The position numbers and the translations under genes are program-made. DNA of 26,956 bases from a virus, in IMG/VR virus record IMGVR_UViG_3300046665_000377, positions 1 through 26,956 of that record; one strand, 5' to 3'. Of this stretch, positions 6,810 to 26,956 are shown piece by piece. Within the stretch, counting starts at the first letter, position 1; each line of letters begins with the position of its first letter. The notes under the pieces are model-generated. The model was not told the origin of the DNA. It did not search any database and worked only from the letters and a program-made list of their open reading frames with translations.

Positions 6810-7943
6810 TTAGATTTGATCCTTCTTAGCTTTAAGCGTCGCAGCAGTAGCGTTCGGGGATCCATCCACGTTGGTACCGAGGTAGTCAACAGGCATTGGA
6901 AGTCCTGGTTCGAACGTGCGCTCTGGAGCTGGCCAAGTTTTTGCGTACGAGATGTTACGCGCTACAGCGATACCAAGACCACCGTAGAGGATACCTACAC
7001 CATAACGCTCTTTCAATTTCAGCGTTTGGATGTCGCGAAGCGGATCGTCGAATTGCTCTGTGGAGATTTCATCTTTCACAAGCAGTACGCCGATGTTGTT
7101 GCGGTCAAGTACGTAGAAGTCAAATTTCTTCGAAGCAGCGTCGAACGGTACGAATGGCGAGAAGATAATGTTCAGGCCGAGCGAGTTGTTCGCGTTAAAC
7201 TCACGAGGATCTTTGAAGTATTGACCTTGACCGAAAGCAGCGATGTCGTTTTCCATCAACATTGCGTTCTTAGCGAACAGTGCCCAAGTCAGTGGGTGCA
7301 TGATGATATCAGTTGGTGTGAAACCAGCAGACATGATGGAAACAGCCATGTCGATCATATCTTCAGCAGTCAATGTGCCATTGTAGTTACCGTCGAAACC
7401 GCGACCAGTTGGGTAGCCGTCTTGACCAAGAGCATACTTACCAGCATCGAACACAACGTGACCGTGTTTGTTGAACTCTTCGAAGATAACTTCTTCTTTC
7501 TTACGAGCCAGCGCACGACCAGCAGCACGAAGGTGAAGACCAATTACATCCCATTGGGAGTCGGAGATCATTTCGTCAGTGATTTGTACTTTAAGACCGT
7601 ACTTCTTCACTTTAACGGATACCGATTGATCCATACCTTGTGTTGCGATGTTCAGCAGTTGGTTAGGGTATTCTTGACCTTCGCCAATTTCGAATGCACG
7701 GATAGCGCCGAATTGGATGAATTCCATCGAACGGCCCTCGTTCAATTGAACGCGTTGGAAGAACTGGGATGCGAGGTACAATGGCTCAGCAGCCTCTACT
7801 ACTACTTGCGAGATTACCTTAGGGATCAAGATGTTTGCATCAGCAGTAGTAAGAGCCTCGCTAACGTTCACACGAGCATCACGGTTCTTACGGCCTTCAA
7901 AAGACATCATCTTGGAATATTGTTCTACTAATTCCATAGTCAT
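6810..7943 (-). CDS. Major capsid protein, HK97 fold
   Basis: A 377-aa protein, the expected size for an HK97-type major head protein that builds the icosahedral shell. Supporting segments are an early helical arm (ALTTADANILIPKVISQVVV), the strand/helix region FIQFGAIRAFEIGEG, the A-domain-like DMIDMAVSIMSAGFTPTDII followed by MHPLTWALFAKNAM, and the late LKLKERYGVGILYGGLGIAV. It follows the protease-scaffold and 422-aa genes, the standard head assembly order. AAGGAGG lies about 10 bases before the ATG; a second ATG follows two codons later. A stem-loop lies on each side of the gene, consistent with separate control of a highly expressed message. Confidence 0.88.
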   Translation of the reverse strand: MTMELVEQYSKMMSFEGRKNRDARVNVSEALTTADANILIPKVISQVVVEAAEPLYLASQFFQRVQLNEGRSMEFIQFGAIRAFEIGEGQEYPNQLLNIATQGMDQSVSVKVKKYGLKVQITDEMISDSQWDVIGLHLRAAGRALARKKEEVIFEEFNKHGHVVFDAGKYALGQDGYPTGRGFDGNYNGTLTAEDMIDMAVSIMSAGFTPTDIIMHPLTWALFAKNAMLMENDIAAFGQGQYFKDPREFNANNSLGLNIIFSPFVPFDAASKKFDFYVLDRNNIGVLLVKDEISTEQFDDPLRDIQTLKLKERYGVGILYGGLGIAVARNISYAKTWPAPERTFEPGLPMPVDYLGTNVDGSPNATAATLKAKKDQI

Positions 7944-15259: not shown

Positions 15260-15459
15260 GGTATCACCCACCTTATCAATGTATAAAAAAATGGCAACGA
15301 ACCTACGAGGAGGGGAGGAGTAGCCCCGCAGGTCGCTGCACAAGGGAGAGGGAGGGATTTGGTCTTACGACCATGGCAAGGGGAATATCGAAGGGGAGGG
15401 GAGGCTCCCAATCAACTATTTGCAGATTAACCCTTTGCCTATCCCCCGTCAACAATAAA
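15260..15459. other. 200-base gap with C/T-rich tracts and a GUAA hairpin
   Basis: The stretch between the large terminase stop and the 480-aa gene is the only sizeable gap in the packaging genes. The minus-strand RNA has three pyrimidine tracts (plus-strand purine runs near 15308-15322, 15342-15356 and 15389-15405). It also has a hairpin TGGTC-GTAA-GACCA (15360-15373) and one copy of a 31-base repeat (15424-15454). An open frame ending at 15303 could give about 50 residues from a TTG near 15450, but it has no good ribosome binding site and a codon use (CCC, CTC, TCC) unlike its neighbours, so I do not call a gene. Confidence 0.4.
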
Positions 15460-17247
15460 TTACCAGCCTCGTCTACCAGGATTATTGTTTCTACCTGTTC
15501 CTCTAGAACCCCACGTATCGAGCTTATCGCCCTTGTCTTTCTTCTTCGACCAACCGAGTGAAACCTTACGCAATGGACGTGGTCCAGGCTCATCCCAGTC
15601 ATCTTTTGTTGTCTTGCTTTCACTCTTGAACATGGACTGTATTGCTTTCAATGGATCAACAAATTTCATATTAGCACTCCCAAACGCCTTAGCGACATCG
15701 ATCTGATGGATTGTTTCAGCTACTTCAGGCATTTCAATAATAAAAGCTAACAGCGAAAGCATCATTGCATCTAAAGCATGCTCATCATCACTAGAGTATG
15801 TAGGCTCACCAGTCTTAGGAGACACTCTCTCAACCGTGTAGTTGGTCATCTGACGAGCGATAGTCTCATCTACTTCCCTACTAGGTATACGCAATGTACC
15901 GCGCTCTAAGAGCATTGTCGTCTGGCTAACCATGAACGGTTTGATTGGTTTCTTCTCAAAGACACGGCTAATTGGATCTCGCACTTCATGCGAAGAACCT
16001 AGGTGTATACCTTTAACCTTGTTGCCAATACGTTTACGTAACATCTCAATCTGGTACTCACCCGCACCTCGGTCAGGGTAAATGAATCGAGGATTGTAGA
16101 TTGCGTCAAGTTCAACGACCTTTTCTACTGCTTTATCGTAGGTAAAATCACCTTTAGGAATCTCGATACGGTTAATAACACGGAATCGACCCTTACCTTC
16201 AATAAGGTTGTCTGAATGTCGCTTCTCATCGAATGGATCCCATTGAGTAACAACAATTTGTGTTGCCGCACCAAACTTATCCCAGTCAATACCGATTGTG
16301 ATCGGGCTATCATGACGAGGACGATCCATGAATGCATATGGTGTGTCAGATGCTTCGTCGATGTAATCCTTATTGAATACACCGATCATCTCTGTACCGA
16401 ACTCTGCAAGTACCTCGTGCTCATAAGCAACTTGGGTATACATACCACGAAGCTCTTGTTCCAGTGATGGGCTCCACTCAGGGTTGACCATCGTTGGGAA
16501 GTAGAACTCAGCCCAGCCTTTAGCACTTGCCCTGTTGTAGTCAGCTAGGTTGTAGTCTGCTTTCTTTCTGTCATACTTGATCGCAACTTCATCTCCGAGA
16601 TCTTGCATGCTCGTAGCATGCGGGAAGTTTCTAAACTTTTGCTCTGTGCAAAGCTTAAAGAACATACCACGACGACCAGTAGGTGTAGATGCAACCATTA
16701 CACCGATACGTTGTGGAGCCTCAAGAGAGATCGCATAGATCGTCTCAAAGTCCTTATCAGTCATATAGTCAACTTCGTCCATGTACAGCCAGTCAGCTTT
16801 TTGACCACGGAGAGATCCACCCTCTGCGCCAGAACGTGTACCAGCGGTGAACAGTTTGATCTTAGAACCATTTTTGAACGTGATGATGTATGGATTACGG
16901 GTCATTCCGACGATACTGTCAGCAAGGGCTGGGTTATTATCGATAAACTCTTTAAGCTGGTCGAAGATCAGACGAGCTTGGTTATCGTAAGGAGTCGCAA
17001 CAACGCATGTCGCACCGCGAGGGACTTTCCCACCATTACATGTGAATGACACCCATAGCATATGCGCACACATAGTCCATGTCTTGCCAATACGTCGCCC
17101 ACATCGCAATACTTTACGATTGTGAGGATGTCGTAATATCTCAGCCTGATACCAGCGAGGGGCGGTACCCAAATGATGGGTCGCCCACTTGACTGGATCA
17201 GAGAAGATTTCTAGCATCTCTTGGTCATGTCTAGTAAACTTAGTCAT
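15460..17247 (-). CDS. terL: Terminase large subunit (packaging ATPase and nuclease)
   Basis: A 595-aa motor protein that docks on the portal, pumps DNA into the prohead and cuts concatemers. The ATPase domain has an adenine-binding WYQAEILRH segment, a Walker A variant CGRRIGKTW (49-57) and a Walker B WLYMDE (153-158). The coupling motif is ASTPTGRRG (186-194). The nuclease domain shows D321/D323 (IGIDWDKFG), D392 (IYPDRGAGE) and the SDDEHALDAM block at 486-495. The frame extends upstream to 17319, but the ATG at 17247 has AAGGATGAGG ahead of it and overlaps the upstream gene's stop by 8 bases (ATGACTAA), so it is the likely start. The C-terminal tail (about 540-595) is Lys/Arg/Gly-rich and probably flexible. 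Confidence 0.92.
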   Translation of the reverse strand: MTKFTRHDQEMLEIFSDPVKWATHHLGTAPRWYQAEILRHPHNRKVLRCGRRIGKTWTMCAHMLWVSFTCNGGKVPRGATCVVATPYDNQARLIFDQLKEFIDNNPALADSIVGMTRNPYIITFKNGSKIKLFTAGTRSGAEGGSLRGQKADWLYMDEVDYMTDKDFETIYAISLEAPQRIGVMVASTPTGRRGMFFKLCTEQKFRNFPHATSMQDLGDEVAIKYDRKKADYNLADYNRASAKGWAEFYFPTMVNPEWSPSLEQELRGMYTQVAYEHEVLAEFGTEMIGVFNKDYIDEASDTPYAFMDRPRHDSPITIGIDWDKFGAATQIVVTQWDPFDEKRHSDNLIEGKGRFRVINRIEIPKGDFTYDKAVEKVVELDAIYNPRFIYPDRGAGEYQIEMLRKRIGNKVKGIHLGSSHEVRDPISRVFEKKPIKPFMVSQTTMLLERGTLRIPSREVDETIARQMTNYTVERVSPKTGEPTYSSDDEHALDAMMLSLLAFIIEMPEVAETIHQIDVAKAFGSANMKFVDPLKAIQSMFKSESKTTKDDWDEPGPRPLRKVSLGWSKKKDKGDKLDTWGSRGTGRNNNPGRRGW

Positions 17248-17422
17248 TGTCCTCATCCTTTTTAGAGAAGCATACAGGACACATTGGAACCAGATCCTTG
17301 CGTACAAAGAGGATTCCATGAACTAGACATGTGACCTTGTGATTCTCCTTTTCTTGTCTCTCTTTAAATTCCTCGTATTGCCGCTCGTACTCCAGAGTTC
17401 TCTTCCCTTTTTTGATAGCCAT
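17240..17422 (-). CDS. 60-aa zinc-knuckle protein overlapping terminase
   Basis: A small highly charged protein. Residues 1-28 form a Lys/Arg/Glu-rich helix (RTLEYERQYEEFKERQEKEN). It then has C32xxH35 and, after 12 residues, C48xxC51, a plausible zinc-binding site, and an acidic end (KKDEDND). GAGGGGAT lies 4-5 bases before the ATG. Its end overlaps the start of the large terminase by 8 bases, so the two are translationally coupled. It could be a terminase accessory or DNA-binding partner. The family is not recognised. Confidence 0.6.
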   Translation of the reverse strand: MAIKKGKRTLEYERQYEEFKERQEKENHKVTCLVHGILFVRKDLVPMCPVCFSKKDEDND

Positions 17423-17424
17423 AG

Positions 17425-17985
17425 TTATCCCCTCTGGAAGCTGTTAGACATAAGTCTAGCTTCTCCACCCAGTACAGAACGGGCATTCATTTTGGAACCT
17501 TGGATAGCTTCAACCGCCGCTTGACGCATTGTTAATGCACGACGAGTGTCTTGGTAGTTTCCACCGAAGTTCGGCAGGTATTGTTGGTTCCACCATTGTT
17601 CCTTTTGGCGTTTCCAGTTATAGATGCCTTCATATACAGCAGGAGCCGCTTTGCCAAGTTCCATTGCACCCATTACCCATGGTGCAGTTGTCCAGAGCAT
17701 ACCCGTGAACGCACCTTTAACCGCAGCTGTTCCGAAATCATCACCAGACTTCATGTTCAGCGCAGTATCGATTACCATACCAGCAGCAAAACCACCAGTC
17801 TTGAGCTTGTTAGCGATCTTTGATCCGCCTTTTTGAGTAAAGTTCATCTCTTGACCGTGCTCAAGTGCTCCACGCCAAGGATTTGTTTCTTTGAGTGGAT
17901 CTGCTTTTGGATAGTACATATTCTCGGAAGCTCTCATCCTGTCATCCATATAGGACTGCTTCCATGAGTGCCAATTCGTTGTCAT
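17425..17985 (-). CDS. Gly/Ala-rich small protein 1 (186 aa)
   Basis: Unrecognised family. The N-terminal 50 residues are polar and aromatic (NWHSWKQSYMDDRMRASENM). Residues 64-118 form a long Gly/Ala-rich hydrophobic stretch with glycines at helical spacing (GGFAAGMVIDTALN; TAAVKGAFTGMLW). The C-terminal part is basic and aromatic (YNWKRQKEQWWNQQ) and ends SFQRG. The segment around GAFTGMLW resembles GAFKGAVGW in the 199-aa neighbour, hinting at distant relationship. Such composition is seen in membrane-inserting or pore-forming helices, so a role as an internal ejection protein or membrane-active factor is possible. It ends 3 bases from the zinc-knuckle gene. Confidence 0.55.
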   Translation of the reverse strand: MTTNWHSWKQSYMDDRMRASENMYYPKADPLKETNPWRGALEHGQEMNFTQKGGSKIANKLKTGGFAAGMVIDTALNMKSGDDFGTAAVKGAFTGMLWTTAPWVMGAMELGKAAPAVYEGIYNWKRQKEQWWNQQYLPNFGGNYQDTRRALTMRQAAVEAIQGSKMNARSVLGGEARLMSNSFQRG

Positions 17986-17989
17986 CTAA

Positions 17990-18376
17990 TTACCCCCTTC
18001 TCATAGCATTAAGACCGAAGACCATGCCTCCGCTTGCCCCCAGAGTAGGTGCTTTAGACCCACCCACGCCATCGTAGCTATGGATCGGTGCTTCGTTCTC
18101 ATATTCAATCTGACCTGGAACAGGTTTTGCATGTACTTGAAGAGACTTTGTATAAGCATACGCTCCTGCGGCACCAAACGCGGCTACATTAGTTAGAGCT
18201 GTAGGCTTATAACCCAAGTATCCGTTGGAGAAATGGGGATCAGTCTTCTTAATTAACGAATTCTTAACACCACTAACGACTGCCTTATCGACAGGATCAT
18301 GAACCTTATTGATATACTTCATGGCTCCCATCTTAAGGTCAACCGCTCCTCTAGCTAAGCCACCAAACAGACCCAT
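17990..18376 (-). CDS. Gly/Ala-rich small protein 2 (128 aa)
   Basis: Unrecognised family. The N-terminus is GLFGGLARGAVDLKMGAMK, amphipathic with repeated Gly/Ala. Residues about 58-78 (TALTNVAAFGAAGAYAYTK) form a short hydrophobic segment that could span or insert in a membrane. The C-terminus (GGMVFGLNAMRRG) ends in RG like the 186-aa neighbour. AAGGAGGG lies about 7 bases before the ATG. It is tightly packed between two proteins of similar composition, which suggests a shared function, perhaps inside the head. Confidence 0.55.
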   Translation of the reverse strand: MGLFGGLARGAVDLKMGAMKYINKVHDPVDKAVVSGVKNSLIKKTDPHFSNGYLGYKPTALTNVAAFGAAGAYAYTKSLQVHAKPVPGQIEYENEAPIHSYDGVGGSKAPTLGASGGMVFGLNAMRRG

Positions 18377-18388
18377 CTAGATCCCTCC

Positions 18389-18988
18389 TTATTTAGATTT
18401 CATGATGCCTTGTGCGGCTACATGATCTTTCTTAGCTTGCATAATGGCTTTAACTTGCTTACTTACACCAGTGAATGCGCCATTTTTAGACAATGGGTTC
18501 ATACTCATATGGTCTGTAGCATGACCAGCCATACGGTATGCTGACCAACCTACTGCACCTTTAAAAGCACCGTCTTTAGCACCAGCCCAAAAGCTTCCGC
18601 CTTGTGCCCATTCTGCTGTACCACCGATAGCAGCGCCGCCAACTGCACCACGAAGTGCATGCTTACCAGCTTGCTTAGCAATACCCATTCCATCTCCGAA
18701 CTTACTAGTGAGGTTACTACCCATACCGCCTAGTACGTTACGAACAATACCTTTGTTAGGGTCATATCCTGCAGCCATTGCAGAAGCTGCACTTGTTGCA
18801 GGAGCAGTAGGCGTAGGAGGCAAAGCAGGGCCATGCATCTGACGTGGACCAACAAAGTCCGCATCATGTTCATGAGGAACCCTTGTAGACCCAGCTCCTT
18901 TGTTAGCTGCATTCTGATATACTTTAGCATTCTTATTCTTTCTAGCTAGTCTTTTGGCTTCTTTTAAAGCCTGACTTATCTTAGGCAC
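18389..18988 (-). CDS. Gly/Ala-rich small protein 3 (199 aa)
   Basis: Unrecognised family. Residues 1-30 are strongly basic (KEAKRLARKNKNAKVY). Residues 53-72 are a Pro/Thr/Ala-rich linker. Residues about 113-157 are a glycine-zipper-like stretch (GAVGGAAIGGTAEWAQGG then FWAGAKDGAFKGAVGW). The C-terminus is a basic helix (VSKQVKAIMQAKKDHVAAQG). The GTG start is supported by AAGGAG about 10 bases upstream. The basic ends could bind DNA and the glycine-zipper could insert in membranes, a combination seen in some ejected internal proteins. That function is inference. Confidence 0.55.
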   Translation of the reverse strand: MPKISQALKEAKRLARKNKNAKVYQNAANKGAGSTRVPHEHDADFVGPRQMHGPALPPTPTAPATSAASAMAAGYDPNKGIVRNVLGGMGSNLTSKFGDGMGIAKQAGKHALRGAVGGAAIGGTAEWAQGGSFWAGAKDGAFKGAVGWSAYRMAGHATDHMSMNPLSKNGAFTGVSKQVKAIMQAKKDHVAAQGIMKSK

Positions 18989-19002
18989 TAGAGATCATCT
19001 CC

Positions 19003-19683
19003 TTATTGGAATTTTGCATTACCCATCTTGTGGTGACCAATGCGGTCATCCCACATATCCATAACAAGCTGTCCCATAGGTTGATGCTTGTTATAACCGA
19101 ACATTTCCGACATCGTCTTCTTATCCCTGCGTGTTTTCTTGTCCATCGCTAGGTCAGCATCACGTTGCATCCGTTCTGTTTCCTTATTCCGTTCAAGCTT
19201 ACTACCCACACCAATCAACGCAGTGGCTCCAATGAATGCGCCAACCCCTGCTGTAAGCCATCCCGCTCTACCTGCATGAACCTTTGCCTTATCAATGAAT
19301 TTCTCTACATCAATATGGTTAGAGGTCTCTACTATCTTACCTACAGAGACTCCCGCTCCTTTATCTAGGAACTCGCTGATTTGATTACTATGGTTCTTGA
19401 TGATGTAGTTAACAGCAGACTCTGCGCCGATAGCTACTCCCGCGTCTTTGGTAACATCCATGATTGTACTAATAGTGCTTTGGTCTTTGGGATGGCTAGT
19501 AGCTAGACCATAGAGACCGCCAACTACACCAGCGACAGCGGCTCTATGTTTGAATGGCATAGCTGAGTATGTTCGGTAGGAATCTTTAAGCTCGGATGTT
19601 ACAGTGGATTTAAAAGAGGGAGTAATGAGATCGGTAGAAGTCTGCTGTCCACTAAGCTTCAGATCACCTAGATCGTGACTCAT
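19003..19683 (-). CDS. Small protein 4 with two Gly/Ala hydrophobic segments (226 aa)
   Basis: Unrecognised family. Two hydrophobic glycine-rich segments are visible at about residues 47-62 (RAAVAGVVGGLYGLA) and 139-160 (RAGWLTAGVGAFIGATALIG), separated by a mixed helical region. A highly charged stretch follows (KLERNKETERMQRDADLAMD; KKTRRDKK) and then a His/Met-rich end. This could be a two-pass membrane protein or an internal virion protein that inserts on ejection. The ATG overlaps the upstream stop as TAATG with GGTGAT 5 bases ahead, so translation is coupled to the small-terminase candidate. Confidence 0.55.
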   Translation of the reverse strand: MSHDLGDLKLSGQQTSTDLITPSFKSTVTSELKDSYRTYSAMPFKHRAAVAGVVGGLYGLATSHPKDQSTISTIMDVTKDAGVAIGAESAVNYIIKNHSNQISEFLDKGAGVSVGKIVETSNHIDVEKFIDKAKVHAGRAGWLTAGVGAFIGATALIGVGSKLERNKETERMQRDADLAMDKKTRRDKKTMSEMFGYNKHQPMGQLVMDMWDDRIGHHKMGNAKFQ

Positions 19684-20360
19684 TATTCATCACCGTCTTC
19701 TGGTGTTACATCAATAATGGTTGCTCCTTGCATTGCTGCGGCTTGAGCCATAAGTTGAGATGCATAAGTGGATGGATCAAGTTGAATCGTGAGCTTGTCA
19801 CCAGCTTTATCCTTACGAGTAGAGTGAAGTAATTGAAGTACGTCATGACGTTTCTTCAGAAGCTTCTCTTTGTACTCAACCGCTTTATGAATGGCTGGGT
19901 TTTGAATCTCATCGCCTTCTTCAGTGACATGCGTTGTAATCATCTGAATGAAGTCGCCATCGATAGCCAATTTGTTATCTGCACGAGCTAGCTGTACATC
20001 TAAGTCAATTAGATCTTTAACCAGCGTCATATCGATAATATTCTCTTGGTCTACATCCAGTTCTTTTGTGTAAGCTTGGAACTTAGTGAGGATATGACTG
20101 ATCTCAATTGGGCAACGTTCACCTTCTGGGTGCTCATCCACTGCATACAATGGACAAGTATCGCTATATGCGCATCCTTCTCCACGACATACCATTGGAA
20201 TAGACGCATAAAGACCATGCTTAACACGTTGTCTAGTAATAGACTTAGTGATTGCCTTCTTAACTTTGTCTGAAGAACCCCAAGCATCAGGAAGCTCAAC
20301 ACCCATAAGATCATCGATGTGCTCTGATTTTGGCACTATGTATTTATCGTTATCTGACAT
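19683..20360 (-). CDS. Small terminase candidate with Cys4 cluster
   Basis: A protein of 225 aa from the ATG at 20360, which has AAGGAG about 8 bases upstream; the open frame runs on to 20474 without a ribosome binding site. Residues 58-83 hold C58-x4-C63-x5-C69-x13-C83 (MVCRGEGCAYSDTCPL, then GERCPIE), a likely zinc or iron-sulphur site. The following helical region (LVKDLIDLDVQLARADNKLA, IDGDFIQMI, then NPAIHKAVEYKEKLLKKRHD) resembles the general layout of P27-type small terminases, which recognise DNA for packaging. It is the first gene of the late block but is separated from terL by five genes. The terminase call is tentative. Confidence 0.45.
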   Translation of the reverse strand: MSDNDKYIVPKSEHIDDLMGVELPDAWGSSDKVKKAITKSITRQRVKHGLYASIPMVCRGEGCAYSDTCPLYAVDEHPEGERCPIEISHILTKFQAYTKELDVDQENIIDMTLVKDLIDLDVQLARADNKLAIDGDFIQMITTHVTEEGDEIQNPAIHKAVEYKEKLLKKRHDVLQLLHSTRKDKAGDKLTIQLDPSTYASQLMAQAAAMQGATIIDVTPEDGDE

Positions 20361-20463
20361 TCTGCGTTCTCCTTCCCTGAAAATAATAAAAAGCCAGAAC
20401 ACCTTACCCATGTAAGAGGCATCCCAGCTTGAGAAAGGATTATGGGTAGAGTTTCTCACCCGT

Positions 20464-20492
20464 ACCATAACCAATTAGCACCTATTTTTCAA
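20464..20492 (-). promoter_or_regulatory. Sigma-A-type promoter for the late/structural block
   Basis: On the minus strand, TTGAAA (20492-20487) and TATGGT (20469-20464) are separated by exactly 17 bases. Transcription would begin near 20457, about 95 bases before the small-terminase candidate. An inverted repeat TTATGG / CCATAA with an inner GGT-GAG stem (20440-20470) overlaps the -10 and start point and could be an operator or the first hairpin of the leader. Confidence 0.5.
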
Positions 20493-20499
20493 TATAAAT

Positions 20500-20684
20500 A
20501 AATACTAAGAGAAGCCTATCTCTCTCGACCCACGTCTCTCGTTCCACTTGGGAGTCCACCGTGTTTAGGAGATAGCCTTCTCTTAATATGGGAGCTGCGT
20601 TTTTTATAGAAGTGATTATTAGATCTTATCTATCTGTCATCTTCTATAGCCGAAGGCAAGCGACGGGGAGCTCCCAAACCCGTC
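20500..20684. other. Non-coding element with nested long inverted repeats
   Basis: There is no gene between 20361 and 20684. Inside it, 20507-20522 pairs with 20569-20584 (16 bp, one mismatch). TGGGAGCT at 20589-20596 pairs with AGCTCCCA at 20669-20676. Enclosed by that pair, 20605-20615 pairs with 20637-20648 (11 bp, one bulge), capped by TAGAT-ctt-ATCTA. GACGGG (20662-20667) can also pair with CCCGTC (20679-20684), whose loop contains AGCTCCCA, so a pseudoknot or alternative fold is possible. It could be a structured RNA, a packaging site or a cruciform regulatory site. The strand is undetermined. Confidence 0.55.
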
Positions 20685-21587
20685 TTATTTGTTGTTGTGG
20701 GCTAATAATTTGTATAGATTGATTAGTCCCGCACCATACTCAGTGTCTTTCCCGTCTGCACCAAGGTCTACCGACTTAGCTGTAAGCATCTGCATAATGA
20801 TCTCAGGCGTAGCCTTCTGACCCATCTTACGGCAAAGGGATTGAATGATTGCTACACAACCTGCAACCATTGGCGTAGCCATGGAAGTACCAGATAGCTT
20901 AGCGTAGCTTTGGTTCTTATATGTAGAGTAGATCTGAACCCCAGGGGCTGCAACATCAACCTCAGAACCAAAGTTCGAGAAGTCCGCTTTATCAAAGCCA
21001 GCATCAACTGCTCCTACAGCAATTACTTCATCATAAGCAGCAGGCCAACCACAGTGAGTGTGTTCATTACCACTAGCCGCTACTAGGATAATACCTGCTT
21101 GTCTTGCTCGCTTAATAGCGTCGTGAAGGATCGGTCCAGGATCTCCACTAGTTCCTAGTGACATAGAGGCAATATCAATGCCATTCGCTATGCACCAGTC
21201 TAATCCATCTGCAATGGCTTGCATGCCACCAGATCCATTGTCACCCATTACCTTAACTGCGTAGAGTTCTACGGCAGGAGCCACTCCCACAACACCAATT
21301 CCATTATCAGAAGCACCGATAATACCAGCGCAGTGCGTTCCATGTCCTTGACGGTCTTCGTAGTCTCCTCTGTCGGAGGAACTAAAATTAGCGCCACCTT
21401 TAAGGTTAGCCACGAGATCAGGGTGACTACGGTCAATACCAGTATCAAGTATTGCAACTTTGAGTCCTTCTCCCTTTGTTGTACCCCATAGCATAGGAGC
21501 CTGTACGACATTAACGCCCCAATCAATGGTCTGTTGTACTTCTTTCGTCACGAACTGAGGTTCGCTAGCGTATAAATGGAATTCCAA
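20685..21587 (-). CDS. Intracellular subtilisin-like serine protease (S8)
   Basis: A 300-aa protein with an intact catalytic triad: D48 in AILDTGID, H82 in GHGTHCAG, S235 in SGTSMATPM, with oxyanion N174 in ASGNEH. There is no signal peptide, and only about 35 residues precede the catalytic core. This and the segment NVVQAPMLWG resemble Bacillus intracellular subtilisins (ISP) rather than secreted ones. A short N-terminal extension (FHLYASEPQFV) may act like the inhibitory propeptide of ISPs. The start is TTG at 21587, supported by AAGGAGG 9 bases upstream. It is downstream of a terminator and upstream of the structured region. It probably acts in the infected cytoplasm on host or virion proteins; the target is unknown. 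Confidence 0.88.
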   Translation of the reverse strand: MEFHLYASEPQFVTKEVQQTIDWGVNVVQAPMLWGTTKGEGLKVAILDTGIDRSHPDLVANLKGGANFSSSDRGDYEDRQGHGTHCAGIIGASDNGIGVVGVAPAVELYAVKVMGDNGSGGMQAIADGLDWCIANGIDIASMSLGTSGDPGPILHDAIKRARQAGIILVAASGNEHTHCGWPAAYDEVIAVGAVDAGFDKADFSNFGSEVDVAAPGVQIYSTYKNQSYAKLSGTSMATPMVAGCVAIIQSLCRKMGQKATPEIIMQMLTAKSVDLGADGKDTEYGAGLINLYKLLAHNNK

Positions 21588-21640
21588 TTCTATCGACCTC
21601 CTTATTATACTAGAAGAATAACCTTTAGCAAAGAGTAGGT

Positions 21641-21677
21641 CAATAAAAGAAAAAGCCCACTCCTGAGTAGAGTGAGC
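21641..21677 (-). terminator. Rho-independent terminator after the NHL-type gene
   Basis: The minus-strand RNA forms GCTCACTC paired with GAGTGGGC (8 bp, one GU) around a 7-base loop, followed by TTTTTCTTTTATT. This is a strong canonical terminator about 45 bases after the stop of the propeller gene and separates it from the subtilisin gene. Confidence 0.85.
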
Positions 21678-21720
21678 TGAGATTATGTACCACCAATTCC
21701 ATTACTAACCGTTCCATTGT

Positions 21721-22755
21721 CTAGTGTACTAGAGAGTACGGCTTTCTGTCAATCCATAGCTTACGTATCGTGTTATTTTCTTTATCAGCGAAAATGTAGC
21801 CACTTCCATCCCATGAGAAGTTCGTGGGATCATGCATCTCTACTTCATCCCCTATTCCATCTACATAGCCACTAACCGATCCTGCTACTACGTCATTCTC
21901 GTTCGTGCGGTGAGTATGGTTAGGTACTGATCGAATAACTGGTTTAAGCTTGTCTTTTGCAATAGAGTAATACAGTGTTTTATCTTCATCTATCCATGCG
22001 TCTAGTATTTGACCCTCATTCGTGTCAACGAACGTCATTGACTGCCTTGGGAAGTACTTTTCATAGTAGATTTGCCCGCCCTCTGTAGCCACTAGAATGC
22101 CGTCTGGGAGCGCTTCAAAGTTCGTAGGGTTACCTAGGAAGGTTGGCTCAAGCAATTCGCTTACAGTGCCACTCTGGAGGTCGTAGTGAGCGAATCCATA
22201 GGTTCCTCCACTTGATTTACTCCACATCATAAAGACTAGATCATCTTGGTACTTTTCCATGCGGTAGATGTAGTAATATCCATGGCTCTTCATCCACTTT
22301 ACTACGTTAGTCATCTCAGTCACGCGATCACCAATGACTTTATAGGCATGATCCTTGGAGGCGAAATATACTACACCATTAGTGACCGCGAGTCCTGATG
22401 TAAAGAAGTCTGCCTCACGACGAGTCACCTTATTCGTACTCATATCCACTAGTGTAGTATTTCTCTTTCCATCCCAATATCTAAGCTTCGTATTCTGAGT
22501 ATCTCCGTCTAGGAAGTATACTCTCTTGCCAGATGCAACAGGGAATCTAGGATGGTCTGTAGTGTACGTTCCTTGCCCCGCAGTGCCTGTTCCTACAATA
22601 GTGGATACTTGACTATACTCTCCACTAGACACGACCTGTGCGTCAATTCCAGAGGCGTAGGCATGATCAGCCACTATACATGCCACTAGGATAGAGGCTA
22701 GGATCATAAACAGCTTATTTTTTCTTCTCAAACTATCACGTTTCTCATTTATCAT
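21721..22755 (-). CDS. Exported NHL-type beta-propeller protein
   Basis: A protein of 344 aa from the ATG at 22755, chosen because AAGGAG lies 9 bases upstream; the open frame reaches 22803 without support. The N-terminus is a signal peptide: basic RRKNK, hydrophobic LFMILASILVACIVA, and a likely cleavage site AYA-SG near residue 34. The LVAC at 23-26 also fits a lipobox, so a lipoprotein is possible. The mature part begins VSTIVGTGTAGQG and ends with the classic NHL pattern: SGYVDGIGDEVEMHDPTNFS, then GYIFADKENNTIRKLW. In between are repeated VYFxxxD-type strands. NHL propellers bind proteins or ligands. An exported one could act at the host surface, for example in superinfection exclusion. 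The role is inferred. Confidence 0.75.
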   Translation of the reverse strand: MINEKRDSLRRKNKLFMILASILVACIVADHAYASGIDAQVVSSGEYSQVSTIVGTGTAGQGTYTTDHPRFPVASGKRVYFLDGDTQNTKLRYWDGKRNTTLVDMSTNKVTRREADFFTSGLAVTNGVVYFASKDHAYKVIGDRVTEMTNVVKWMKSHGYYYIYRMEKYQDDLVFMMWSKSSGGTYGFAHYDLQSGTVSELLEPTFLGNPTNFEALPDGILVATEGGQIYYEKYFPRQSMTFVDTNEGQILDAWIDEDKTLYYSIAKDKLKPVIRSVPNHTHRTNENDVVAGSVSGYVDGIGDEVEMHDPTNFSWDGSGYIFADKENNTIRKLWIDRKPYSLVH

Positions 22756-22774
22756 TATTTTCATCTCCTTATCT

Positions 22775-22781
22775 ATAGTAT
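22775..22781 (-). promoter_or_regulatory. Possible -10 element for the NHL-type gene
   Basis: The minus strand reads GGGTATACTATAG just upstream of the gene's ribosome binding site, giving a good -10 (TATACT). The expected -35 position (GTATGT) is poor, so the promoter may need an activator or share control with the overlapping divergent promoter. Confidence 0.3.
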
Positions 22782-22796
22782 ACCCAGGAAAGTCCA

Positions 22797-22824
22797 TTGA
22801 CATACCATGACTATATGGTACAAT
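22797..22824 (+). promoter_or_regulatory. Sigma-A promoter with internal palindromic operator
   Basis: TTGACA (22797-22802), a 16-base spacer and TACAAT (22819-22824) form a near-consensus promoter firing rightward into the 68-aa gene. The spacer and first -10 bases carry an inverted repeat TACCAT-gactat-ATGGTA (22803-22820). A protein bound there would block RNA polymerase, so this is a candidate operator. A ribbon-helix-helix protein is encoded 450 bases downstream. Confidence 0.7.
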
Positions 22825-22856
22825 AGAGATAAGAGATTGGTAAAGGGGAGAGACTA

Positions 22857-23063
22857 ATGGGATACATAACGTACAACATCCATTATGGACATGGTGAAGT
22901 ATGGACTGAGACTCGTGTCTTCAATGAACTATTTGATATGATGCGTTTAACTAGCCAAGAGTTTTTATCTTCTCTTGCAGAAGAGTATCAAGCCGAATAC
23001 GTGCATGTTGAGTCACTGTACGTCAATGGACAAGAAGTAGGAGCTGAGGCTCTTTGTGTGTAG
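22857..23063 (+). CDS. Small unknown protein (68 aa)
   Basis: First gene of the rightward module, with AAAGGGGAGAG about 7 bases before the ATG and a strong promoter about 35 bases upstream. The protein is acidic and contains one clear helical stretch (ETRVFNELFDMMRLTSQEFL). I see no known motif, signal peptide or membrane segment. Early expression and small size fit a host-takeover or regulatory protein, but nothing in the sequence shows which. Confidence 0.6.
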   Translation: MGYITYNIHYGHGEVWTETRVFNELFDMMRLTSQEFLSSLAEEYQAEYVHVESLYVNGQEVGAEALCV

Positions 23064-23093
23064 AGAAACCTACTTCTAGTCTATATCGTCAAA

Positions 23094-23175
23094 CTCAGGT
23101 AAAACCTGAGGTAGTACGTACTATTAAGTGGGGATCTATAGCTTGGCTAGTGATAAAGATCGTACTAGAGCTATA
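23094..23175 (+). other. Intergenic hairpins and palindrome
   Basis: The 206-base gap between the 68-aa gene and the ribbon-helix-helix gene holds three features. CTCAGGT-AAA-ACCTGAG (23094-23110) is a perfect 7-bp hairpin. TAGTACGTACTA (23112-23123) is a perfect 12-bp palindrome. An imperfect hairpin lies at 23137-23175, in which TATAGCT pairs with AGCTATA and an inner CTAGT with ACTAG. The first lacks a clean U tract. These could be operators, attenuator-like structures or a small RNA. Confidence 0.45.
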
Positions 23176-23206
23176 TGATTTACAGAATAGTAAAACTTAG
23201 AAAACA

Positions 23207-23235
23207 TTTAGAATAGTAGACAGTAAGACTATACT
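23207..23235 (+). promoter_or_regulatory. Probable promoter for the ribbon-helix-helix gene
   Basis: TTTAGA (23207-23212), a 17-base spacer and TATACT (23230-23235) give a reasonable sigma-A promoter ending about 30 bases before the next start codon. The -35 matches four of six consensus bases. Confidence 0.45.
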
Positions 23236-23269
23236 GGCGTATTCTATAGGAAAGGGACTAAACAAACTC

Positions 23270-23461
23270 ATGGGTAAAAAAGACCTTAAACACAGAACGC
23301 AATTCACGAGCACCTTAAAGATTCAACTATATGAGGATATTCAAAAACTCTCTAACGAGACCCAAATCCCCATCTCACGTCTCCTAGACATGGCAGTAAC
23401 AGATTTTCTGCAAGATCACTATGGACAAGTGAATAAAGCAAAGAATATCTGGCCAGACTAG
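23270..23461 (+). CDS. Ribbon-helix-helix DNA-binding protein (63 aa)
   Basis: The sequence HRTQFTSTLKIQLYEDIQKL, then SNETQIPISRLLDMAVTDFL, fits the ribbon-helix-helix fold (CopG/Arc/MetJ class): a short beta strand followed by two helices with the turn at QIPISRL. These proteins dimerise and bind palindromic operators through the strand. Length is typical. The ATG follows AGGAAAGGG at a rather long distance of about 14 bases, so initiation may be weak. Its place in the early module makes it a candidate regulator of the nearby palindromes (22803-22820 and 23112-23123). Confidence 0.65.
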   Translation: MGKKDLKHRTQFTSTLKIQLYEDIQKLSNETQIPISRLLDMAVTDFLQDHYGQVNKAKNIWPD

Positions 23462-23530
23462 AGACTAAGGTGTTTAACTATAACTTTCTGTGTGTAAGAA
23501 AATATCAGACAACAGAAGGAGGAATTAGTC

Positions 23531-24079
23531 ATGGGAACTATGGCGAAAGAGATCAAGAAACTAAGAGGAAGAGATACCTATCTAGCGGTACAAGAAGATA
23601 TGGATCGATTCATGAAAGCTAAGGGTTATCAACACTCTGCTGATAACAACACAGAGTTTCTCAAGCAACTGTACTATGGTGTAGACAGAATACTTCAGTA
23701 TGTACAGGAACAAGATCAAAAGATAGAGAAATTGCTCTCGAATCTGTATGAATTACCTGCTACTCCACGCGGGTCACGTAACGTCAAGGTACGTCGTCAT
23801 ACACCTACACCTCAACAAGAGCTAGCTAAAGCTCTACATCTAATAGAGAATAATCGTGATCACAACGGTCGCATTACGTGGCGTAAAGTTTCTGATCCGA
23901 AGAAACTGATCTTTGCATACTTACGCAAGGCAGAATCAGAAGGTATAGACATTGAAAAGACTATGGAGGTACAAGAGATTCCTACCTACCGTCGAGTGTT
24001 TCAATACATTGTCTATAACCTAGGATCATGGAAAGACGTTGTAGAAGAATATAAACAAGCAAAGGGAGCCCTTCATTAG
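23531..24079 (+). CDS. Possible DNA-binding protein with HNH-repeat-like C-terminus (182 aa)
   Basis: AAGGAGGAATT precedes the ATG (GAAGGAGG, about 9 bases). The N-terminal half is helical and probably coiled-coil (about residues 40-75: TEFLKQLYYGVDRILQYVQE). A basic linker follows (RGSRNVKVRRHTP). The C-terminal 90 residues contain ELAKALHLIENNRDHNGRIT, and a later part with YRRVFQYIVYNLGSWKDVVE resembles the repeat found next to homing nucleases (a helix ending in a GSW motif that binds DNA). No nuclease motif is present. A DNA-binding regulator is the best guess; confidence in the family is low, but the gene itself is well supported. Confidence 0.5.
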   Translation: MGTMAKEIKKLRGRDTYLAVQEDMDRFMKAKGYQHSADNNTEFLKQLYYGVDRILQYVQEQDQKIEKLLSNLYELPATPRGSRNVKVRRHTPTPQQELAKALHLIENNRDHNGRITWRKVSDPKKLIFAYLRKAESEGIDIEKTMEVQEIPTYRRVFQYIVYNLGSWKDVVEEYKQAKGALH

Positions 24080-24097
24080 GAGGCTCCCCTTTTTTTA
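24061..24097. terminator. Bidirectional terminator between convergent genes
   Basis: GGGAGCC (24064-24070) and GGCTCCC (24082-24088) form a perfect 7-bp stem around an 11-base loop that includes the plus-strand gene's TAG. The plus-strand RNA continues CTTTTTTT, a strong terminator. The minus strand of the same hairpin ends in TTTGCTTGTTT and could terminate the SASP gene, whose stop codon is at 24095-24097. Confidence 0.85.
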
Positions 24098-24295
24098 TCT
24101 ACGTCCCGATAAGCTTTGTTCTGCAATCTGTACAAGGCGTTTAGTAATGTTTCCCCCGATTTGTCCTACTTCACGAGTAGTCAGGTTTCCATTGTAGCCT
24201 TGGTTAAGGTCTATCCCTAATTCACTTGCGATTTCATACTTCATTCGATCGATAGCGGCTGTTGCTTGTGGTACTATGAGTGTTCCTCTAGTCAT
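24095..24295 (-). CDS. Alpha/beta-type small acid-soluble spore protein (SASP)
   Basis: A protein of 66 aa from the ATG at 24295, preceded by GGAGGTG at 9 bases; an in-frame GTG at 24307 overlaps that ribosome binding site and is unlikely. The two family signatures are both present: AIDRMKYEIASELGIDL (14-30), which includes the YEIASE region recognised by the germination protease GPR, and GQIGGNITKRLVQIAEQSL (44-62). In spores these proteins coat DNA, force an A-like form and protect against UV and heat. Length is normal (60-75). A phage copy could protect phage DNA in a spore or interfere with sporulation or host DNA. It lies between a homing endonuclease terminator and a shared convergent terminator. 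Confidence 0.9.
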   Translation of the reverse strand: MTRGTLIVPQATAAIDRMKYEIASELGIDLNQGYNGNLTTREVGQIGGNITKRLVQIAEQSLSGRR

Positions 24296-24348
24296 TATGT
24301 ATGTCACCTCCGATCTACTCTTATGTTCCCCTATCTAATACCGAATAT

Positions 24349-24379
24349 TCCCTATAGGGACTCGAAATTTTGAAATTTT
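24349..24379. promoter_or_regulatory. Palindrome and direct repeat upstream of the SASP gene
   Basis: TCCCTATAGGGA (24349-24360) is a perfect 12-bp palindrome. Next to it are two tandem copies of GAAATTTT (24364-24371 and 24372-24379). Both lie 55-85 bases upstream of the SASP start. No convincing promoter hexamers could be assigned, so these are regulatory candidates only. Confidence 0.4.
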
Positions 24380-24399
24380 TCCAGGCGCTAGTTATGTGA

Positions 24400-24435
24400 T
24401 AAAGAAAAAGGGTGCAGCTTTGGATTAGCCCACCC
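24400..24435 (-). terminator. Terminator after the homing endonuclease
   Basis: The minus-strand RNA forms GGGTGGGCT paired with AGCTGCACCC (9 bp, one bulged G), followed by TTTTTCTTT. The TAA stop lies inside the stem. It isolates the endonuclease transcript from the SASP gene downstream. Confidence 0.8.
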
Positions 24436-25096
24436 GTTGTTTTATGGAGTCATAGAACTCCTTCTTACGCTTCATATAGATAGTAGCATCAGTATACATG
24501 AGTTCATACAACCGCTTAGTGTCATGTACATAGTAACGCATCTGATAATAAGATGTAGCACCTTCAACTAATCCCGTTCTATTCCTCTGCACTAGGGAAA
24601 CTGTAGCTTCTCTTAAACCTAACTGGAATAATTTGTCTCTTAGCCCTTGAGCGAACTGTTCACTTCCTGTAGTGAATCCACTAACTAGTCTAGTCTTCAC
24701 GCCCTTATGTAGCTCAGATGTGAAATGTCCATTACCGTCAAAGTACCCTCGTATAAAGTGAGTGACATACGGCTCTGGTATTTGGGGAAAAGTTTTTGTT
24801 TTTGTTTTGGCTACAGTAACTCCTAGCTCCATTAGTCTGTTGCCCATATGAGTGTTACAAATTACAAGTGAGTAGTAAGGTGAACGTACTGCACTAGTCC
24901 TCACGTTGATCTTGTGTTCCGATTCCATTACATGTTTTAGGGTTTCAATAACCTCCAGATCCGTACTACCGAAGATTAGCATAGGATACTTACCCTTATT
25001 CAAAGATAAACAACCATCCGCATAAATAAAACCAAGAACATACGCCATTTGCTCCGACCACTGATCGAAGAACTCTACGTTAACTTTCTTTGTCAT
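24425..25096 (-). CDS. Free-standing LAGLIDADG homing endonuclease
   Basis: A 223-aa protein with two LAGLIDADG-type helices: AYVLGFIYADG (18-28) and HFIRGYFDGNG (113-123). Each ends in the acidic residue (D27 and D120/N122 region) that coordinates metal. Two motifs in one chain fit a monomeric enzyme that cuts a long DNA site and spreads its own gene. It has its own promoter and terminator and is not inside an interrupted host gene, so it looks free-standing. AGGAGG lies 9 bases before the ATG. The N in GYFDGNG departs from the usual second Asp/Glu and could reduce activity. Confidence 0.85.
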   Translation of the reverse strand: MTKKVNVEFFDQWSEQMAYVLGFIYADGCLSLNKGKYPMLIFGSTDLEVIETLKHVMESEHKINVRTSAVRSPYYSLVICNTHMGNRLMELGVTVAKTKTKTFPQIPEPYVTHFIRGYFDGNGHFTSELHKGVKTRLVSGFTTGSEQFAQGLRDKLFQLGLREATVSLVQRNRTGLVEGATSYYQMRYYVHDTKRLYELMYTDATIYMKRKKEFYDSIKQRVG

Positions 25097-25116
25097 CTCT
25101 ATCGCCTCCTATCACT

Positions 25117-25145
25117 ATAGTAATCTAGTTTCCTATTACCGTCAA
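25117..25145 (-). promoter_or_regulatory. Promoter of the homing endonuclease gene
   Basis: On the minus strand TTGACG (25145-25140), a 17-base spacer and TACTAT (25122-25117) form a good sigma-A promoter just upstream of the gene's AGGAGG. The leader would be very short. It stands back-to-back with a possible plus-strand promoter at about 25169-25196. Confidence 0.6.
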
Positions 25146-25149
25146 CCCC

Positions 25150-25198
25150 CTCTATAGAGCGCTTTGGATTGCAGAATCCAAGCGGCAAGGTATATATA
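25150..25198 (+). promoter_or_regulatory. Operator-like palindrome, hairpin and possible promoter
   Basis: CTCTATAGAG (25150-25159) is a 10-bp palindrome. It is followed by an inverted repeat CGCT(T)TGGATT-gcag-AATCCAAGCG (25160-25184; 10 bp, one bulge) and then TATATATAT. TTGCAG at 25169 with TATATA 16-18 bases on could be a weak rightward promoter for the metallopeptidase module. The hairpin covers the -35. Confidence 0.35.
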
Positions 25199-25279
25199 TG
25201 TGATTTGCTGTGGATTCCTAACGAGGCCACGGGTGGTCTGACAGCTCAACAAGGAGCGAGACTGAGAGGAGCATGCACA

Positions 25280-25744
25280 ATGTTAACAATGATTGATGAG
25301 AAAGCAGTACAACTAGAGAAACATGCGCTTGAAAATGATTGTGAATTAAAGGTAGTAGATATGGTACGTATATTCAATGATGTACCTGTATACCTAGTAG
25401 AGATGGAAGGATTCGTATTTGCTGGCTATGTACCTGTAGTAGATGTATACATGGTAGGTAAGGACTTCTTTACATTCTTTAATGAAGAAGAACAACAAGC
25501 TGTACTATACCATGAGGAAGGACATCGTGTGCATGGTGATGTAGATACCACTGAGTATGAGGACTACCTAGCAGATGAGATAGCTGCTGATGCATATGCT
25601 GTATCCAAGGGGTATGGGCATGTCATGGTAGACATACTCACTAAGTCCTTTGAGTATCAGGCTAGTATGGTAGATGAGGTACCACCATACGTACAGGATC
25701 TACTAGATGCTAGGGTAGCAGCCATGCTGAAGGGAGGTGAATAA
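25280..25744 (+). CDS. HEXXH zinc metallopeptidase-like protein
   Basis: The zinc motif HEEGH (residues 78-82) is followed by an acidic segment LADEIAADAYA (98-108) that can supply the third ligand (E100 or D104), as in small cytosolic metallopeptidases. The protein is 154 aa from the ATG at 25280, chosen because GAGAGGAG lies 8 bases upstream. The frame extends to a TTG at 25169, but that part lacks a ribosome binding site and crosses a hairpin. There is no signal peptide, so it should act in the cytoplasm, perhaps cutting a host regulator as IrrE-type enzymes do; the target is unknown. Codon use favours GTA, CTA and TAC. It ends KGGE, whose codons form the next gene's ribosome binding site. 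Confidence 0.7.
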   Translation: MLTMIDEKAVQLEKHALENDCELKVVDMVRIFNDVPVYLVEMEGFVFAGYVPVVDVYMVGKDFFTFFNEEEQQAVLYHEEGHRVHGDVDTTEYEDYLADEIAADAYAVSKGYGHVMVDILTKSFEYQASMVDEVPPYVQDLLDARVAAMLKGGE

Positions 25745-25746
25745 GC

Positions 25747-25953
25747 ATGGAAGCACGGTTATTTAAGCTAGCTAATAATGGTCTACTACCACACGTAGAG
25801 CTAGGGTATAGCAATACTACTACACTAGGTAGGCCTGTAGTAGAAGGACAGCGCATACAGCTACACTATATAGGTGGGCTAATGTATACGTATGAGGTAC
25901 TAGCTGTAGCTATGGGTATAGCAGTACTACTACTAGTAGAGGAGGCAGTATAG
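25747..25953 (+). CDS. Small unknown protein (68 aa) with hydrophobic C-terminus
   Basis: GGGAGGTGAATAAGC stands before the ATG; the ribosome binding site lies inside the end of the metallopeptidase gene, whose stop is 2 bases away. The C-terminal 22 residues are hydrophobic (YEVLAVAMGIAVLLLVEEAV), possibly a membrane anchor or a buried strand. From codon 7 onward the gene contains no TT dinucleotide, using GTA, CTA, ACT and GGT almost exclusively. No family is recognised. Confidence 0.55.
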   Translation: MEARLFKLANNGLLPHVELGYSNTTTLGRPVVEGQRIQLHYIGGLMYTYEVLAVAMGIAVLLLVEEAV

Positions 25954-25956
25954 GGC

Positions 25957-26199
25957 ATGGTAGTAATCAACCTAGAACAACAGAAACACATCAAGATGGT
26001 ACGTAGAATACGGCAATGCATGACATCTGCTACACAGTGCATGGGTAGTGGTAATGAGGGTGGCTATGCACACTGGACTAAGAAAGCTAATATGCTTAGG
26101 CATGACCTAGGTAAGGGGCTAGGCTATGGTAAGGGTACTACTATACACCTTATAGAGGGTAGTACTACACAGATTAAGGTAGAGGAGATAGGTATATGA
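25957..26199 (+). CDS. Small basic protein (80 aa)
   Basis: GAGGAGG lies about 11 bases before the ATG, 3 bases after the preceding stop. It is basic with a helical start (NLEQQKHIKMVRRIRQCMTS) and a glycine-rich middle (GSGNEGGYAHW; GKGLGYGKG). The N-terminal half shares the TT-free composition of its neighbour. The end overlaps the next ORF as ATGA. Function unknown; the basic charge would allow nucleic acid binding. Confidence 0.55.
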   Translation: MVVINLEQQKHIKMVRRIRQCMTSATQCMGSGNEGGYAHWTKKANMLRHDLGKGLGYGKGTTIHLIEGSTTQIKVEEIGI

Positions 26200-26315
26200 G
26201 CTTTATTGATTTCTGTCAGTTCATCTTTAAGAAGTATCCGCATATGGATGGCAATCAGCTTCTTGCTATGTGCGAGGTAGCGTATAAAGAGATTCAAGAA
26301 GAAGAGCAAATGTAG
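26196..26315 (+). CDS. Micro-protein (39 aa)
   Basis: ATG at 26196 overlaps the preceding stop (ATGA), with AGAGGAG 8 bases upstream. The product is MSFIDFCQFIFKKYPHMDGN then QLLAMCEVAYKEIQEEEQM: an aromatic N-terminus and an acidic helical end. Base composition returns to normal here, with many TT. No family is recognised; the coupling and ribosome binding site support translation. Confidence 0.55.
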   Translation: MSFIDFCQFIFKKYPHMDGNQLLAMCEVAYKEIQEEEQM

Positions 26316-26345
26316 TATCTACCTTACTGAAGGGAGGTGAAAAAC

Positions 26346-26435
26346 ATGGCTAAGACAGAACTCGACATCAAGAAAGTACTTAGTCAACTAGGAATCAAAG
26401 TAGACGCAAACATGATTATCAAACAAAAACGTTAA
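26346..26435 (+). CDS. Micro-protein (29 aa)
   Basis: A very strong ribosome binding site, AAGGGAGGTGA, lies about 6 bases before the ATG. The product (MAKTELDIKKVLSQLGIKVD then ANMIIKQKR) is a short basic amphipathic helix. It is too short for a family call. The 15 bases CTGAAGGGAGGTGAA upstream are identical to those before the gene at 25747. The next gene starts 14 bases after the stop, so it fits the operon. Confidence 0.45.
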   Translation: MAKTELDIKKVLSQLGIKVDANMIIKQKR

Positions 26436-26449
26436 AGGAGAGTTCGCAA

Positions 26450-26677
26450 GTGCCTAGTCGTTATTCTATTCGCTCTATTATGGCAATGTTTCAATTGAAA
26501 GAGGATCATATCTGGGATGCCATTGAATGTGGAGACATCATGGTGGTTGCACCTAATGGTGTAGATATGATGGATGTAGTTAACTGTTATACGAATAAAG
26601 AAGGAGTTCAATTCCTGCGTACTATCAGTCAGGCAGCTGTGGCAGTGGAAACTATTCTAAACCAATTGGAGGAATAA
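26450..26677 (+). CDS. Small unknown protein (75 aa)
   Basis: GTG start at 26450 with AAAGGAG 9 bases upstream. The sequence RYSIRSIMAMFQLKEDHIWD, then AIECGDIMVVAPNGVDMMDV, looks like a small alpha/beta protein with a helix pair at the start that could be a helix-turn-helix-like or MerR-like DNA-binding unit, followed by a helical tail (RTISQAAVAVETILNQLEE). The resemblance is weak. It is packed between micro-genes with short spacers, so it belongs to the same rightward operon. Confidence 0.55.
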   Translation: MPSRYSIRSIMAMFQLKEDHIWDAIECGDIMVVAPNGVDMMDVVNCYTNKEGVQFLRTISQAAVAVETILNQLEE

Positions 26678-26680
26678 TCT

Positions 26681-26956
26681 ATGTCAACTGTTAATGTTCT
26701 GGATTGTGCTTATTGTGGTCGTAAGGATGCTATGCTTTCCGTGGTAGAAGGCAAAGGGGTATGTGAACACTGTAAGTTTGTTGTTACTGAAGCTAATATC
26801 ATTCGTCGTGGTATTGCCCGCGTTGTCAATGTTGTAGAGAAAGGCTTGGTTAATCTGCACAATCGCATCATGAATAGCTCGTTAATTGTAAACTCTGCTG
26901 AGGAGGTGATTAAACAACGCTTTGAAACATGTATGGCTATGCGCGAGGCAACTAGA
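26681..26956 (+). CDS. Zinc-ribbon protein (partial, runs off the window)
   Basis: ATG at 26681 with TTGGAGGAATAATCT ahead, GGAGG about 8 bases upstream. The open frame continues for 92 codons to the window end without a stop. CAYCG (residues 9-13) and CEHCK (33-37) form a CxxC-x20-CxxC zinc ribbon separated by KDAMLSVVEGKGV. Helical sequence follows (NIIRRGIARVVNVVEKGLVN). Zinc ribbons of this kind are common in small phage nucleic-acid or protein-binding factors. The gene starts 3 bases after the previous stop. Confidence 0.65.
   Translation, partial: MSTVNVLDCAYCGRKDAMLSVVEGKGVCEHCKFVVTEANIIRRGIARVVNVVEKGLVNLHNRIMNSSLIVNSAEEVIKQRFETCMAMREATR

Follow-up and report, generated by a model that had tools for sequence, protein, structure and literature searches.

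An insulated alpha/beta-type SASP gene in a probable jumbo-phage fragment related to Bacillus phage vB_BauM_KLEB27-3

Genes for SASPs have been annotated in phages for years. According to a review, sspC of SPbeta encodes an alpha/beta SASP that is under SigG control and increases the UV resistance of spores (PMC8270828), the authors of the CampHawk study presume that phage DNA is protected by the SASP of that phage (PMC3868849), and the trapping of phage genomes in spores has been described (PMC9429907). SASP made in vegetative bacteria is reported to block both replication and transcription (PMC8538823). The words SASP and acid-soluble do not occur in the main text of a study that surveyed gut phages for sporulation genes (PMC10294663), and among the literature matches listed no open paper deals with a SASP of a jumbo phage or of a Paenibacillus phage, yet phage G is annotated with one. 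The SASP described here has matches in 62 of 50,697 phage records, including those of SPbeta, phi3T, SPO1, CampHawk and phage G; it is a further, somewhat unusual example, and carries a known kind of phage gene into a poorly described jumbo lineage.

The closest described proteins each share only part of the picture. SspC of SPbeta (2Z3X) is also a phage-borne alpha/beta SASP, about 48% identical to the new protein and encoded by a single gene that runs counter to its neighbours, but it has no GYNG-type insertion, has a sigma-G promoter and belongs to a temperate phage of another kind. The SASPs of SPO1 (gp34.25) and CampHawk are likewise products of a lone gene opposite to its neighbours in a large phage, with no sigma-G promoter detected, but they are 46% identical, carry a long C-terminal tail and come from an unrelated phage family. 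Phage G gp417 is the SASP of a jumbo phage, again with no sigma-G promoter detected, but is 39% identical and from another phage lineage. Paenibacillus and Cohnella hosts, P. whitsoniae and P. albiflavus among them, have SASPs that are 58–75% identical and share the GYNG-type insertion; unlike the phage gene, the host genes are chromosomal, and most have a clear sigma-G promoter about 30 nt before the start.

The window, by which we mean the whole stretch of DNA analyzed, is a virus record of 26,956 bases and a fragment of a genome. It is probably a piece of a jumbo phage related to Bacillus phage vB_BauM_KLEB27-3, judging from its structural genes. KLEB27-3 is the closest named phage, with related terminase and capsid proteins (Table 1), shared genes at the SASP junction and an annotated gene order of terminase, portal, protease and capsid that is also the order in the window, where the portal is assigned by PHROG only. 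A further relative, IMGVR_UViG_3300042922_000643 (251,543 bases; hereafter G002), has terminase and capsid proteins 65% and 80% identical to those of the window. Long relatives span 217–264 kb, and a DNA-level search of positions 14000–26956 against the phage collection returned no match. The label 'myophage' rests mainly on KLEB27-3, since the tail-sheath match in the window is weak. Integrase genes occur in two of nine records (G013 and G015) and ParA-type genes in none of the nine. A Paenibacillaceae-like host is suggested by the SASP itself: the best 80 of 427 genome matches are mainly from Paenibacillaceae, and within these 80 the nearest host SASPs are those of Paenibacillus and Cohnella. 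No match to the window terminase was found in the genome contigs searched or in any of 30 genomes around P. whitsoniae; the latter search was run without a positive control, and its empty outcome therefore carries no weight.

Table 1. Positions of the SASP gene, its flanking elements and other features discussed in the text
Feature	Coordinates	Strand	Evidence
Major capsid protein	6810–7943	minus	PF25209, E 2.2e-21; 74% identical to KLEB27-3
Terminase large subunit	15460–17319	minus	phrog_2, E 1.1e-37; 60% identical to KLEB27-3
Subtilase	20685–21587	minus	Peptidase_S8, E 4.6e-60
360-aa protein	21721–22803	minus	Unassigned in Pfam and PHROG; conserved at the G002, G004 and KLEB27-3 junctions
Ribbon-helix-helix (RHH) protein, 63 aa	23270–23461	plus	PF12651, E 1.7e-9; junction homologues in G002, G004 and KLEB27-3
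182-aa protein, conserved neighbour of the SASP	23531–24079	plus	No Pfam or PHROG family; homologue adjoins the SASP in G002
Convergent terminator between the SASP and 182-aa genes	24064–24096 (hairpin 24064–24088, then T run)	plus	-15.8 kcal/mol, z -2.83
Alpha/beta-type SASP gene, 66 aa, ATG start	24095–24295	minus	PF00269, E 8.3e-26; 2Z3X, E 1.6e-12; sequence
Shine-Dalgarno of the SASP gene	24307–24311 (GGAGG, 24311–24307)	minus	Sequence
Weak sigma-G-like elements, abnormal 20-nt spacer	24319–24350 (GAATA, 24350–24346; CATAAGA, 24325–24319)	minus	p 0.039, only at spacers 15–20
Terminator hairpin ending the upstream endonuclease-like gene and insulating the SASP gene	24410–24435	minus	-12.1 kcal/mol, z -2.28, T-rich tail
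LAGLIDADG_3 homing-endonuclease-like gene, free-standing	24425–25096	minus	PF14528, E 1.6e-12; phrog_4645
Sigma-A-like promoter of the endonuclease-like gene	25145–25117	minus	Promoter scan

On sequence comparison, the window protein can be assigned firmly to the alpha/beta-type SASPs. It scores 90.2 bits in a profile search with PF00269 (cut-off 22), aligning to profile positions 3–59 of 59, matches phrog_10367 (function not given; E 5.7e-21) and has SspC of the SspC–DNA complex as its sole match among PDB sequences. Its frame is the only SASP match within the window. The ORF listing gives this frame as 24095–24307 with a GTG start codon; we prefer the ATG at 24295, because the GTG lies inside the Shine-Dalgarno sequence and the ATG follows 11 nt past GGAGG. 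The segment KYEIASELGI fits, by regular expression, the pattern that we take to be SASP signature 1. Within it is the GPR cleavage region with EIA, described as the site at which GPR cuts SASPs (PMC8452069).

The host sample comprises the nearest sequences found, 80 loci (the best 80 of 427 matches), which a hand count divides into 73 loci of Paenibacillus or Cohnella and 7 of Clostridia or unnamed Bacillota MAGs. Among the 65 distinct host SASPs that they encode, 27 columns are conserved at a threshold of at least 90% identity; the window SASP keeps 24 of these columns, the G002 SASP 22 and SspC 20. The three departures in the window protein (N4G, L15I and Q17R) are each present in one or more of the 65 hosts, and the host-conserved residues that it retains include the GG-x-x-x-K block. 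Judged by conservation, it is to all appearances an ordinary SASP. The first-pass annotation had placed an alpha/beta SASP here, starting from the same ATG and with both signatures and the GPR region intact, and is borne out for the family, the start, signature 1 and the GPR region; the loss of DNA-contact residues that it named as a possible refutation, judged by residue conservation, is not seen.

The SASP gene forms an insulated one-gene unit between two terminator hairpins. The upstream hairpin is followed on the minus strand by the T-rich tail CTTTTTCTTT. The downstream hairpin, when folded on the minus strand, has an energy of -17.9 kcal/mol (z -2.45) and is followed only by TTTG, and hence is convergent, with a better fit to the plus-strand gene. 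With hairpins on both sides, the promoter, if there is one, would lie within about 110 bases before the ATG. Similar orientations are seen in other phages: in eight annotated records, among which those of SPbeta type and of SPO1 type are related to each other, the strand changes from the SASP to the following gene in seven and to the preceding gene in six. A cruder count, based on mechanical ORF calls for 61 distinct viral SASPs, finds a convergent downstream neighbour in 44 of 58, with three having no neighbour.

The same arrangement is found in G002, where the SASP (71% identical over 58 aa by tblastn) occupies the same junction, points the same way and adjoins the same neighbour. Homologues of the 182-aa, RHH and 360-aa proteins (39%, 53% and 42% identical) lie beside it in the same order and orientation, and a similar convergent hairpin is visible by eye at the same place between the SASP and 182-aa genes. 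A pattern scan of viral contigs for the 182-aa protein returned no relative, though G002 has one, and so must have missed it. The G002 locus differs in having a sigma-G-type promoter, a Bro-N-type gene upstream of the SASP and no adjoining endonuclease gene. The endonuclease-like gene has no match in the equivalent stretches of G002 and of a second relative, the 43,959-base fragment G004, which marks this apparently inserted gene beside the SASP as the lineage-specific element at the locus.

Over 59 codons, the window and G002 SASP genes differ with pS 0.78 and pN 0.25, dS being saturated. The low pN relative to pS, together with the shared locus in a diverged phage, indicates that the SASP gene is old at this site and under selection. 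Of the picture drawn in the first-pass annotation, the tight borders and the hairpin on each side therefore stand, although the downstream hairpin is convergent and a simple terminator scan of the window reports neither, whereas the proposal of a recently acquired cargo unit is not supported, in view of the synteny with G002 and the pS/pN divergence. The comparison with hosts that it recommended yields conserved columns in the alignment, but the tree leaves the place of the window SASP unfixed: with 70 columns and 103 rows (65 distinct host proteins from 80 loci and 37 viral ones included), a clade of window and G002 gives p-AU 0.34, which neither supports nor rejects it. Six viral sequences that were truncated, chimeric-looking or odd (L052, L069, L071, L080, L124 and L009) were left out of the tree, as were SPbeta-type rows beyond five and L002. 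The last of these (IMGVR_UViG_2791355221_000001) is a 103-kb 'virus' record that may be a Paenibacillus ferrarius provirus or include host DNA; since its SASP, which does not differ from the P. ferrarius one (L159), may be host DNA within or next to a provirus, we dropped the record as evidence.

The gene is patchily distributed among relatives. The junctions of KLEB27-3 and G004 contain the RHH and 360-aa genes but no homologue of the 182-aa protein, and no SASP was found in the whole 216,671-base KLEB27-3 record, which has SpoVS in that region instead, or in the G004 fragment. Among 21 records picked by capsid or terminase, a count from which the short terminase records L029–L032 were left out, two have a SASP (G002 and G008), most of these records being fragments in which absence is weak evidence. 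The G008 SASP is probably a separate gain, given its low identity (46%) and its distance from the G008 capsid gene.

The question of when the gene is expressed was approached through its promoter. The sigma-G consensus consists of GHATR and CATNHTA. A matrix was trained on those host upstream regions, 63 out of 80, that conform to this consensus; this makes the host scores circular but not those of the phages or the window. By this measure, a sigma-G-type promoter is clearly present before host SASP genes, with a (circular) median of 17.9 bits. The G002 SASP has one too, TTGTATAA-17-AAATGCTAT, placed 29 nt before the ATG at a host-like distance; its 14.6 bits were matched by none of 300 shuffles and, in a repeat run, by at most 1 of 200. 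SPbeta (17.2 bits), phi3T (16.9) and BSTP5 (16.8) are, like G002, at or below about 1% of shuffles. No sigma-G promoter was detected before the SASPs of SPO1 (-5.7 bits), CampHawk (-7.6) and phage G (1.1), and the region upstream of the window SASP contains none at the normal spacer of 17–18 (2.1 bits, p 0.39–0.40). Rescans of the window against 2000 shuffles gave p 0.40, 0.18 with distance limits and 0.039 when spacers of 15–20 were allowed; the last value, one of three tries, belongs to the GAATA/CATAAGA pair in Table 1, which we do not count as a promoter. Neither two patterns nor inspection by eye revealed a promoter motif that the SASP upstream region has in common with other genes of the window, and Rfam gave no match. 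Across 61 distinct viral SASP upstream regions, 28 reach a sigma-G score of at least 10 with p <0.01, about three-quarters of these 28 being SPbeta-type copies by our own count. The scores thus divide phage SASPs into a sigma-G class and a class without such a promoter.

Starting from the observed family membership, conservation, synteny with G002 and insulation, we hold with moderate confidence that the window encodes a functional alpha/beta SASP that would derive from a Paenibacillaceae-like host SASP, sits insulated in a jumbo-type phage, and would join the forespore SASPs and protect DNA until cleaved by GPR. Its most likely function would be to coat forespore DNA, a trapped phage genome included, in infected cells that sporulate. 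A cell that is infected or carries the phage would sporulate with the phage genome ending in the forespore, where the phage SASP would add to the SASP pool of the spore. Coating through the minor groove, as expected from the family, would shift the DNA toward an A-like form and shield it from UV and chemical damage; on germination, GPR would cleave the phage SASP at EIA and the DNA would become readable again. If a trapped phage genome does benefit, the phage would be guarding its DNA in the spore with its own protein, which bears on whether phages gain from spore trapping.

This forespore role is favored by the intact family match and GPR region, the retained columns, the excess of pS over pN and the G002 synteny, and also by the sigma-G promoters of G002 and SPbeta sspC, by the described trapping of phage genomes in spores (PMC9429907) and by the SpoVS genes near the region in G002 and KLEB27-3. 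Against it stands the window's own upstream region, with no sigma-G promoter at normal spacing. Forespore timing of the window gene, suggested by the promoter in G002, is accordingly less firm than its family assignment. In addition, the four Paenibacillaceae genomes searched have 6–10 PF00269 matches each, so that one more copy from a phage may add little.

The SpoVS gene of G002 (L210:1492-1755), about 6 kb from the SASP, and that annotated in KLEB27-3 (OM634661 214832-215098) both lie close to one and the same end of the structural module. SpoVS is present in 3 of 13 records, the third (G023) being a record chosen by its SASP; none is found in the window, which stops 2.6 kb past the SASP. 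The family also matches the non-sporulating control genomes Thermus, Deinobacterium and Thermotoga, and SpoVS alone therefore does not equal sporulation.

The main rival to forespore expression is expression in the lytic phase. SASP would then be made during vegetative infection from a phage-specific promoter, and would either coat and silence host DNA or shield and compact replicating phage DNA. The window, SPO1, CampHawk and phage G, none with a detectable sigma-G promoter, are consistent with this, and the last three suggest that phage SASPs need not act in sporulation. The arrest of replication and transcription by vegetative SASP (PMC8538823) and the protection presumed for CampHawk DNA (PMC3868849) point the same way. 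However, the window promoter scan also lists no minus-strand sigma-70-like site in the gap that separates the upstream terminator from the SASP gene, phage replication would itself be blocked by an unspecific DNA coat, and the syntenic G002 gene has a forespore promoter. We regard lytic expression as a tentative possibility.

A more elaborate scenario, which we consider unlikely, would combine the two. The jumbo lineage would possess a spore-survival kit (the SASP, with SpoVS nearby in relatives) that lets its genome travel in spores, and the SASP would have moved from sigma-G to another programme, making G002 and the window a before-and-after pair in the change from a spore protein to a lytic or packaging protein. 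Whichever reading applies, this pair, with the same locus lacking a forespore promoter in one phage and having it in the other, is the point of real interest, and the timing is directly testable.

It is distinctly unlikely that the SASP is a passenger, a captured host gene now with no working promoter or effect. Neither a sigma-G nor a sigma-70-like promoter was found for it, and two of the four genomes or fragments with the RHH junction have no SASP in the record (G004 and KLEB27-3), implying that it is dispensable in the lineage; but the open frame, good ribosome-binding site and conserved columns, with pN far below pS and the same locus kept in two diverged phages, all argue for function. 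An effect on host sporulation other than DNA protection, for example on spore maturation or outgrowth through SASP dose, has precedents in the reported influence of C. difficile SASPs on spore formation (PMC8452069) and in phage sigma factors that reduce spore yield (PMC10294663, PMC9429907), but is highly improbable here, as no result of our analysis favors it and the protein appears ordinary by conservation.

Beyond viruses, 83 plasmid records in PLSDB match the window SASP, 61 of them from Priestia and some in multiple copies, and SASP genes thus travel on plasmids too. In the structural-gene half of the window, the subtilase gene (Table 1) has promoter-like and terminator-like flanks of its own.
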